The position numbers were made by a program, and so were the translations under genes. Below are positions 42,838 through 46,005 of a stretch of 64,000 nt of DNA, piece after piece. The stretch is from NCBI GenBank assembly GCA_028285415.1, contig JANQPF010000029.1, positions 1 through 64,000 on the forward strand. Direction: 5' to 3'. Numbering within the stretch: position 1 is the first letter of the stretch; each line of letters opens with the position of its first letter. The DNA is from Pseudomonadales bacterium (GTDB lineage Bacteria > Pseudomonadota > Gammaproteobacteria > Pseudomonadales > Azotimanducaceae). Below the pieces are notes generated by a model. That model made no database searches and was not told the origin of the DNA. It saw only the letters and a program-made list of their open reading frames with translations.

Positions 42838-43790
42838 TTGCAAGCGCTCCCGGCAAACTGGTCCTGTGGGGTGAATACGCCGTGCTCGCGGGTGCGCCGG
42901 CTGCTGTCATGGCGGTCAACCGTCGTGCGACGGTGCAGGTCAAACCCGCTCCCGCCTGGCAGTTTACGAGCGCCGGTCTGCCGACCGCCGGCGTTTATTG
43001 CGGTACGGGCGAGTTCACCGGAACCCCAACCGCGGGTACCGCCGAAGCTGTGCTTCGTCACTTCGGCTACGGCGCGTTGCCCCAGCCTGCCATGCGGGTA
43101 CACAGCGCAACTGAAGACTTTTTCGACAACAGCGTTAAGCTTGGTCTGGGCTCCTCTGCGGCAATCTGCGCTGCCACTACCGCAGCCTTCGGTCACCAAC
43201 TCCGGCACGCGGTGAGCCTCGATGACGCGCTGGCCGTGCATCACCGCCTGCAGGGTGGGGGCAGCGGGCTGGACGTGGCGGCAAGCTGGCACGGCGGCGT
43301 CATCCGCTTCGAACGCACGTCGGATGTCGTGGACGTCACCGCGACCACGCTGCCCGACAATCTCTGTTGGCAAGTCGTATTCACTGGCACGCCCGCGGTC
43401 ACCGCTGCTCACGTGTCGAGCTTCAACGCCTGGCGGGAAAGTGAGGACAACGGCGTGCTCGAGGTCCTTGCCGATGCAAGCAGCGCGCTCTTCTCCGCGT
43501 CCCGGGATCTAAGCGCCTGGCGCCGTTACATCACCGCGCTCGGCGATCTCGACGCCGCCGCCGGGCTGAACATTTTTACGCAAGAACACGCGCAATTAGC
43601 TACAATCGCGGCCGCGCATGGCCTGGTGTACAAACCCTGTGGTGCCGGCGGCGGTGACATAGGCATTGCCGTCGGCGACGAGCCCGCCGCCGTTGCAGCG
43701 TTTACCGCAGCAGCCAGCGCACAGAACTTTGTGCCACTCGATTTGGAGATCGCCACCGATGGCGTCAGACTCAGCGACCACCAGCCCTAA
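42834..43790 (+). CDS. mvaK2: Phosphomevalonate kinase
   Basis: A 318-aa GHMP kinase. The N-terminus GKLVLWGEYAVLAGAPAAVMAVNR matches phosphomevalonate kinases, the ATP loop KLGLGSSAAICAATT is near residues 103-117, and motif 3 is CGAGGGDIGIAVG near 268-280. It phosphorylates mevalonate 5-phosphate. Translation begins at TTG 42834, overlapping the mvaD stop (TTGA), an arrangement of coupled translation. It overlaps the next gene by 32 nt. I call phosphomevalonate rather than mevalonate kinase because the following gene supplies the mevalonate kinase domain. Confidence 0.85.
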   Translation: MIASAPGKLVLWGEYAVLAGAPAAVMAVNRRATVQVKPAPAWQFTSAGLPTAGVYCGTGEFTGTPTAGTAEAVLRHFGYGALPQPAMRVHSATEDFFDNSVKLGLGSSAAICAATTAAFGHQLRHAVSLDDALAVHHRLQGGGSGLDVAASWHGGVIRFERTSDVVDVTATTLPDNLCWQVVFTGTPAVTAAHVSSFNAWRESEDNGVLEVLADASSALFSASRDLSAWRRYITALGDLDAAAGLNIFTQEHAQLATIAAAHGLVYKPCGAGGGDIGIAVGDEPAAVAAFTAAASAQNFVPLDLEIATDGVRLSDHQP

Positions 43791-46005
43791 CACGTCGCGC
43801 ATACCCAATTTCTTCCGCATGAGCATCGCCGAGCGCATTGCCGCGCTACACGAGCGCGGCATGCTCAGCCAGGATGACGTGCAACAACTCGCCACGGCGT
43901 CCCACCAGCTGCAGCTCAACGTCGCCGACAAGATGATCGAAAACGTCGTGGGCGTTTTTGGCCTGCCGATGGGCGTCGCGCTCAACTTCTACATCAACGG
44001 CCGGGACTACGTCGTGCCTCTGGTGGTTGAAGAGCCTTCCATCGTTGCGGGCTTATCGGGTGCTGCGCGCATGGCGCGTCTGGGTGGCGGGTACACCGCA
44101 AGCGCCAGCGAGCCGATCCTCATCGGCCAGGTCCAGGCAGTGCTCGACGACAATCCCGAGCCGGCGATGCAGGCACTGCTCGATCATAAAGAAGACATTC
44201 TTGCGCTTGCCAACAGCCTGCATCCGAAAATGGTGGCTCGCGGCGGCGGCGCACTCGACGTCGAGGTGTTTCATCACGTGGCCGAGCAGGACGGCCGCCA
44301 CATGGTCGTGCTGCATCTCCTGGTCGATACGCGCGACGCCATGGGCGCAAATCTGGTCAACTCGATGTGCGAAGGGGTTGCCTCGCTGGTCGAGACGATC
44401 ACCGGCGGCCAGGTGTTCCTGCGCATCCTGTCGAATCTGACCGACCGCGCCATTGCGCGAGCCAAAGTCACCATCCCCACCGCCAACCTCGAAGGCAAAG
44501 GCTACAGCGGCGAGCAGGTACGCGACGGCATCATCCTTGCCAACGACCTGGCGCTGGCTGATCCGTACCGTGCGGCAACCCACAACAAAGGCATCATGAA
44601 CGGCGTCGATGCGGTTGCCATCGCCACCGGCAACGACTGGCGCGCCATCGAAGCGGCGGCACACGCCTACGCTGCACGGAGCGGCCGCTACGCCGGTTTG
44701 ACGAAGTGGTACCAGAACGAGAACGGCGACCTCGTCGGGGAGATCGAAATCCCCATGAAAGTTGGCACGGTCGGAGGATCACTGGAAACCAATCCGAGCG
44801 TGCGGATCAACCACCGCCTGCTGGGTTCTCCCGATGCCACCGAGCTGGCCGGCATCATGGGCACCATCGGACTCGCGCAGAACTTTGCCGCGCTCAGGGC
44901 GCTGTCGACGAACGGCATCCAGCAGAATCACATGAACCTGCACGCCAGAAGCGTCGCCAGCACGGCCGGGGTTCCGGAGGAATACTTCGAAACCGTCGTG
45001 GAAAGCCTCATTGAGTCCGGCGAAATCAAGGTCTGGAAGGCTCAGGAGATTGCGAAGAATCTCGCGCGCAAAACCGTGCGCCCGGAATCCAGCGAGCGCC
45101 AGTCCGCCTACGGCAAGGTCATCCTGCTCGGCGAACATGCGGTCGTCTACGGCCGCCCCGCCGTTGCCCTACCTATCCCGCTTGCGGTGGAGGCTGCGGT
45201 GCGCCGTGAAGGTGAAGGCGTCAATATTCTCATCCCACGCTGGGGGCTGGAACAGAAAGTTCACGAAAACACCCAGGGACTGGCAGGGATTCTCGCCAGC
45301 GTGCTGGACGAGCTTTCGCTGCTGAAAGAAAACATGATCATCGAGGTGTTCCCGCACGTGCCGCGAGCCATGGGACTCGGCGGGTCGTCAGCACTGGCCG
45401 TGGCGGTGCTGCGCGCGCTCAGTCACACGTATCAGCTGGGTCTGTCCGACGGACGCATCAACGAGCTGGCATTCGAGTGCGAAAAAGCGGCGCATGGCAC
45501 GCCCTCGGGTGTCGACAACACGGTGGCCACCTACGGCACCCCGCTCAGATACCAGCGCGACGGAGACACGCCCCGCTACGAGAGCCTCAAACTCGGCCAA
45601 CCGCTCGAGCTGGTGGTTGGTATCACCGGCAAAGAGAGCCTGACCGCGGACACGGTGGCGCGGGTGCGCGCGTCCTGGCAACAGTACCCGGACCGCTACG
45701 AGAGTATCTTCGATCAGATTGCGCTTTTGACCGAGGCCGGTGCGGAGGCGCTGGTCAGCGGTCGCCTGGCGGAGCTCGGCGAGCTCATGAATCTCTGCCA
45801 CGGCTACCTGAACGCGCTGCAGCTGTCGACGCCTGAGCTCGAGGAACTGATCCACATTGCCCGCGCCAACGGGGCGCTCGGTGCCAAACTGACCGGCGGC
45901 GGCGGTGGCGGCTCGATGGTGGCGCTGTGTCAGGATAACCAGCGTGACGTGCAGCAGGCCATGCAGGCTGCCGGTTACAACACTTTGGAAGTGCGGCTGG
46001 ACTGA
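43759..46005 (+). CDS. Fused class II HMG-CoA reductase and mevalonate kinase
   Basis: A 748-aa two-domain protein. Residues about 12-440 are a class II (Pseudomonas mevalonii-like) HMG-CoA reductase: Glu92 in VEEPSIVAG, Lys277 in THNKGIMNG, Asp293 in TGNDWRA and His391 in QQNHMNLHAR match the catalytic set. Residues about 448-748 are a GHMP mevalonate kinase: YGKVILLGEHAVVYGRPA near 451, AMGLGGSSALAVAVL near 538, HGTPSGVDNTVA near 578 and the C-terminal KLTGGGGGGSMVAL. It would convert HMG-CoA to mevalonate and then to 5-phosphomevalonate. I start at ATG 43759, which overlaps the previous gene by 32 nt; an upstream ATG-less extension exists. No stop or frameshift separates the halves. Confidence 0.93.
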   Translation: MASDSATTSPNTSRIPNFFRMSIAERIAALHERGMLSQDDVQQLATASHQLQLNVADKMIENVVGVFGLPMGVALNFYINGRDYVVPLVVEEPSIVAGLSGAARMARLGGGYTASASEPILIGQVQAVLDDNPEPAMQALLDHKEDILALANSLHPKMVARGGGALDVEVFHHVAEQDGRHMVVLHLLVDTRDAMGANLVNSMCEGVASLVETITGGQVFLRILSNLTDRAIARAKVTIPTANLEGKGYSGEQVRDGIILANDLALADPYRAATHNKGIMNGVDAVAIATGNDWRAIEAAAHAYAARSGRYAGLTKWYQNENGDLVGEIEIPMKVGTVGGSLETNPSVRINHRLLGSPDATELAGIMGTIGLAQNFAALRALSTNGIQQNHMNLHARSVASTAGVPEEYFETVVESLIESGEIKVWKAQEIAKNLARKTVRPESSERQSAYGKVILLGEHAVVYGRPAVALPIPLAVEAAVRREGEGVNILIPRWGLEQKVHENTQGLAGILASVLDELSLLKENMIIEVFPHVPRAMGLGGSSALAVAVLRALSHTYQLGLSDGRINELAFECEKAAHGTPSGVDNTVATYGTPLRYQRDGDTPRYESLKLGQPLELVVGITGKESLTADTVARVRASWQQYPDRYESIFDQIALLTEAGAEALVSGRLAELGELMNLCHGYLNALQLSTPELEELIHIARANGALGAKLTGGGGGGSMVALCQDNQRDVQQAMQAAGYNTLEVRLD

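Follow-up and report, generated by a model that had tools for sequence, protein, structure and literature searches.

Does a bacterium of the Pseudomonadales make HMG-CoA reductase (HMGR) and mevalonate kinase as one polypeptide, and if so, how did the joined enzyme arise and what would it do? To address this we analyzed a stretch of 64,000 nucleotides from this organism, hereafter called the window. The reading we favor, with a probability of roughly 0.85, is that a single bifunctional reductase-kinase polypeptide is made, that the products of neighboring genes finish the route, and that the fusion had a single origin from adjacent genes.

The gene (Table 1) is open from end to end, and since the profiles for both enzymes pass their curated cut-offs, the first-pass annotation was right to place two domains in one continuous frame. 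Its product of 748 residues consists of a class II HMGR (residues 1 to about 432), a linker of about 16 residues and a mevalonate kinase (about 448 to 748); Pfam places PF00368 at residues 23-396 (348 bits) and two GHMP kinase domains at 519-592 and 663-740. The earliest candidate start in the frame is a TTG at 43666, upstream of the ATG at 43759; the latter has a GGAG about 10 bases on its 5' side and agrees with the N-termini of relatives. The AlphaFold model (mean pLDDT 86.8) predicts two confident domains joined by a weak linker, with the lowest confidence at residues 1-10 and 440-443 (pLDDT below 50 at 440-443), and at a pTM of 0.58 the relative placement of the two domains is not to be trusted.

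Table 1. Features of the fused gene and of its operon; positions are those of the window.
Feature	Position	Strand	Basis
Diphosphomevalonate decarboxylase	41899..42837	+	TIGR01240, 232.5 bits (cut-off 171.35)
GHMP kinase, probably phosphomevalonate kinase	42834..43790	+	TIGR01220, 80.6 bits; operon position
Fused class II HMG-CoA reductase/mevalonate kinase, 748 aa	43759..46005	+	Profile, homologue and frame evidence
HMG-CoA reductase part, residues 1-432, with E92, K277, D293, H391	43759..45054	+	TIGR00532, 1qax, Foldseek
Cofactor helix HPKMVAR, residues 155-161, NADPH-like	44221..44241	+	1qax alignment; conservation in 65 fused proteins
Inter-domain linker KNLARKTVRPESSERQ, residues 433-448	45055..45102	+	Junction comparison, model pLDDT
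Mevalonate kinase part, residues 449-748	45103..46002	+	TIGR00549, Foldseek

The same arrangement proved to be common. Counting open reading frames in which the HMGR and kinase domains each score above 100 bits, we found 102 others with both domains in one frame, or 103 with the window's own. Matches occur in 32 of the 36 other genomes of the genus (the four without are at most 82% complete), and in 29 congeners a single frame runs across the junction. Among 369 genomes sampled across the Gammaproteobacteria, nine further fused genes turned up in six other families, and a scan of GTDB genomes found fused genes in isolates of Dyella, Rhodanobacter, Salinisphaera and Cryobacterium as well as in metagenome-assembled genomes labelled Calditrichota, Acidobacteriota, Planctomycetota, Ignavibacteriota and KSB1, labels that may be wrong. 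The genome collections overlap (the gene of locus L093, for example, is that of L028), and at L040 the contig ends within the fused gene. An artefact of assembly or binning that joined two genes might be suspected, since the genome behind the window is a draft in 34 contigs, and a join at 45040-45110 had been raised as a possibility at first reading. The same stop-free junction, however, is present in about 100 open reading frames from independent assemblies, cultured isolates included, which rules out chance and brings the probability of an assembly join practically to zero. Because the same joined protein is found in so many other bacterial reading frames, the HMGR-mevalonate kinase fusion is a real inherited arrangement, not a sequencing error; the first-pass proposal that genes for two consecutive pathway steps are joined here is thus confirmed, and the joined gene is widespread.

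One continuous frame could still yield two proteins, if an internal start or proteolysis yielded a free-standing mevalonate kinase, in addition to the fusion or in its place. The linker has a GTG at 45077, preceded by an AGGAG at a distance of about 28 bases, and many relatives of the fusion carry some GTG, TTG or ATG in their linkers. A ribosome site would have to lie closer, though, and no internal start with a well-placed one is found in the linker of the window's gene. Across the fused reading frames compared, the linker varies from 7 to 81 residues without shared sequence, and the idea of a conserved internal start was rejected, as none was found in these linkers and several fused genes have no start codon there at all. 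We therefore regard a separate kinase as improbable and retain the reading of a single bifunctional polypeptide.

Both halves have the features expected of working enzymes. The reductase half scores 406.9 bits with TIGR00532 over residues 6-396 (curated cut-off 259.95); its nearest solved relative by sequence in a phmmer search is the P. mevalonii HMGR (1qax, 406 bits), to which Foldseek aligns it with a TM of 0.89 normalised by target. The kinase half scores 237.7 bits with TIGR00549 over residues 450-723 (curated cut-off 163.05), and its solved relatives are the mevalonate kinases of L. major (2hfs, 147 bits) and M. mazei (6mde, 134 bits), with Foldseek TM values to target of 0.79-0.88 across the two and 0.88 for M. 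mazei. When 65 fused proteins from several phyla were aligned, E92, K277, D293 and H391 of the reductase were invariant, and so were K453, GEH 458-460, G539/G541/S543, E575, DN 586-587 and the G713/G715-718 loop of the kinase. The kinase thus has both the GHMP motifs and the catalytic Asp (D586), and the claim that both domains keep their catalytic sets is borne out by the invariance of Glu92, Lys277, Asp293 and His391 and of the main GHMP residues. Judging from this conservation, the reductase half would reduce HMG-CoA to mevalonate, and both halves are predicted to be active.

The cofactor of the reductase had been treated with caution at first reading, where a His (SLHPKM) was aligned by eye with Asp146 of the P. 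mevalonii enzyme. The phmmer alignment to 1qax places His155 at exactly this position, so that the caution was justified, and the question can now be narrowed. In a 2026 preprint (PMC13370337, citing Miller and Kung), the motif of NADH-using class II HMGRs is given as Dx(V/L)xxxL and that of NADPH-using ones as (H/Y)xSxxxR. As quoted there, the NADH motif is not matched by HPKMVAR, while the NADPH motif is matched at His and Arg, with Lys where Ser would be expected. The first helix position is His in 63 of the 65 fused proteins and the seventh is Arg in all but one (64 of 65); at the third, most have Lys, Asn or Arg instead of Ser. In the Ruegeria HMGR, Asp154 was identified as the residue that governs cofactor choice, and its replacement by Lys raised NADPH use 53.7-fold (PMC12292504). 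Taking together the conserved His and Arg, the published motifs and the Ruegeria result, it is likely that the fused reductase prefers NADPH.

The fusion closes a run of three genes that begins with a diphosphomevalonate decarboxylase and continues with a GHMP kinase resembling phosphomevalonate kinase (Table 1). The TTG start of this GHMP kinase overlaps the decarboxylase stop, and its end overlaps the start of the fusion by 32 bases. TIGR01220 is its best NCBIfam match, with a score below the cut-off of 165.7, and it is probably the phosphomevalonate kinase, a role read from its place in the operon. Elsewhere in the window lie an aminoglycoside-phosphotransferase-like protein with a weak family score (39478-40353, upstream of the operon), a PPK2-family polyphosphate kinase (49492-50343) and, 6 kb from the fusion, a small DUF35-like protein beside a thiolase-superfamily "lipid-transfer" protein (51502-53111). 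At two other loci (L126:8231-8797 and L091:8392-8958), a NUDIX gene, probably a type I isopentenyl diphosphate isomerase, follows the fusion, which is not so in the window.

Comparison of genomes points to the use of this operon in biosynthesis. None of the 25 genomes tested from the genus has IspH (LytB), and it occurs in each of 13 relatives from other families of the order. In the window's own genome Dxr was not found and IDI-1 is present. Therefore the mevalonate pathway must be in use, and the genus appears to live on it alone. A degradative role, with the reductase working as a mevalonate oxidase, might be read from the name of the best-scoring NCBIfam model (TIGR00532, "degradative") and from P. 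mevalonii HMGR being the closest solved relative. We rejected this role as highly improbable: the operon pairs the gene with a diphosphomevalonate decarboxylase and a kinase, IspH has been lost in the genus, the cofactor helix is unlike that of NAD-using enzymes, and phosphorylation of mevalonate would oppose its oxidation.

As for the origin of the fusion, a quick maximum-likelihood tree groups the fused reductases in one clade (SH-aLRT 99), and outside this clade stand unfused proteobacterial, myxobacterial and Bacillaceae enzymes. A reductase gene followed by an adjacent but separate kinase gene occurs in Myxococcota, Virgibacillus and Paucisalibacillus. At four myxobacterial loci (L122, L124, L128 and L131), one stop codon is all that separates the HMGR segment from a mevalonate kinase segment in the same frame, and at the two Bacillaceae loci the ATG of the kinase gene shares bases with the stop of the reductase gene; loss of the stop or a small indel between such adjacent genes would make the fusion. 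In the kinase tree the fusion label needs three changes, which rest on the incomplete row L040, itself a fused protein, and on the Bacillaceae rows, whose branch is very long; otherwise this tree agrees with that of the reductase. Since the fused reductases form one clade and the enzymes encoded by unfused neighboring genes fall outside it, a single origin of the fusion from adjacent genes is probable. Its presence in several phyla suggests that it was also transferred between lineages.

From these results we propose the following scheme. The reductase half would convert HMG-CoA to mevalonate, probably with NADPH, and the kinase half would phosphorylate the mevalonate at once with ATP; the neighboring kinase and decarboxylase would then complete the route to isopentenyl diphosphate. 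The fusion would have been born by loss of the stop between adjacent, co-transcribed genes and would then have spread by descent and transfer. Its likely gain would be that the two enzymes are always present 1:1 and that mevalonate is removed fast, which pulls the reductase forward, so that the two reactions may be coupled kinetically. A more intimate relation, in which mevalonate is handed directly from one active site to the other and the fusion was kept for this reason, has in its favor that the two steps are consecutive and that the kinase is attached to the C-terminal reductase domain, which bears the catalytic His391 and which we take to be mobile as in P. mevalonii HMGR. Channelling of this kind seems unlikely to us, however, because the linker of 7 to 81 residues has no conserved sequence, the model (pTM 0.58) gives no confident packing of the domains, and free mevalonate diffuses readily; with linkers so variable, a structured channel is less likely than a gain through stoichiometry and product removal.

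Both enzymes are well known; what seems new is their combination. The reductase half shares with class II HMGRs (P. mevalonii MvaA and the NADPH-using S. pneumoniae enzyme) the fold, the Glu/Lys/Asp/His set and the C-terminal helical domain; compared with MvaA, the fusion adds a C-terminal kinase, and HPKMVAR replaces the D-type helix of P. mevalonii. The kinase half has the fold and GHMP motifs of the L. major and M. mazei mevalonate kinases but sits on the C-terminus of a reductase. The mvaA-mvk pairs of Myxococcus, Corallococcus, Virgibacillus and Paucisalibacillus have the same gene order and related sequences; there, however, the two genes are separate, either divided by a stop or overlapping by 4 bases, whereas here they form one frame. 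Enterococcal MvaE, in which a thiolase is fused to HMGR, is the nearest known fusion in the pathway and likewise joins two mevalonate-pathway enzymes, HMGR included, but its partner is N-terminal and acts two steps upstream, whereas the partner here is C-terminal and is the next enzyme. Apart from a weak MVD-like GHMP match in 19 members, the Pfam domains of the 65 fused proteins are all HMGR or GHMP ones, and no thiolase domain of the MvaE type was found in any of them. IspDF of the MEP pathway is also a natural fusion of two isoprenoid-pathway enzymes (PMC13001223), but it belongs to the other pathway and its steps are non-consecutive. We found no report of an HMGR-mevalonate kinase fusion in the open-licence literature, though the underlying sequences are publicly available and domain-architecture databases may list it.

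No HMG-CoA synthase was found in the window's genome with PF08540, with PF01154 or by tblastn with a divergent 498-residue synthase of Salinisphaera, whose gene adjoins the fusion operon on the opposite strand (L097:2214-3710, minus strand). Some congeners carry genes similar to this synthase (L147, L148 and L149), and others have a second kind (L150-L153). PF01154 has a match in only 10 of 34 genomes of the genus, a count to be read with the fact that synthases of these lineages score just 50-105 bits with this profile and that a more divergent one could be missed. Six other genomes of the genus that are at least 95% complete (G001, G005, G016, G018, G020 and G036) also lack a detectable synthase in these searches. 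Leucine breakdown could supply HMG-CoA instead, because the window's genome encodes a methylcrotonyl-CoA carboxylase beta subunit and HMG-CoA lyase. A tentative, rather doubtful extension of this idea is that the genus makes all its isoprenoids from mevalonate without HMG-CoA synthase: HMG-CoA would be derived from leucine via methylcrotonyl-CoA carboxylase and methylglutaconyl-CoA hydratase, and the fused reductase-kinase would take it from HMG-CoA lyase toward isopentenyl diphosphate. We considered one carboxylase cluster (L170:4574-13188, G000:C34) as the leucine pathway and set it aside, its beta subunit being equivocal between a methylcrotonyl-CoA and a geranyl-CoA enzyme; of the two, L169 is the better methylcrotonyl-CoA carboxylase. 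The L170 cluster comprises acyl-CoA dehydrogenases, a biotin carboxylase pair, a crotonase and a 590-residue protein that has no NCBIfam match and looks like AtuA of terpene degradation. The fusion is also a marker of bacteria in which the MEP pathway has been replaced, and in this genus it directs attention to the supply of HMG-CoA where no HMG-CoA synthase can be found.
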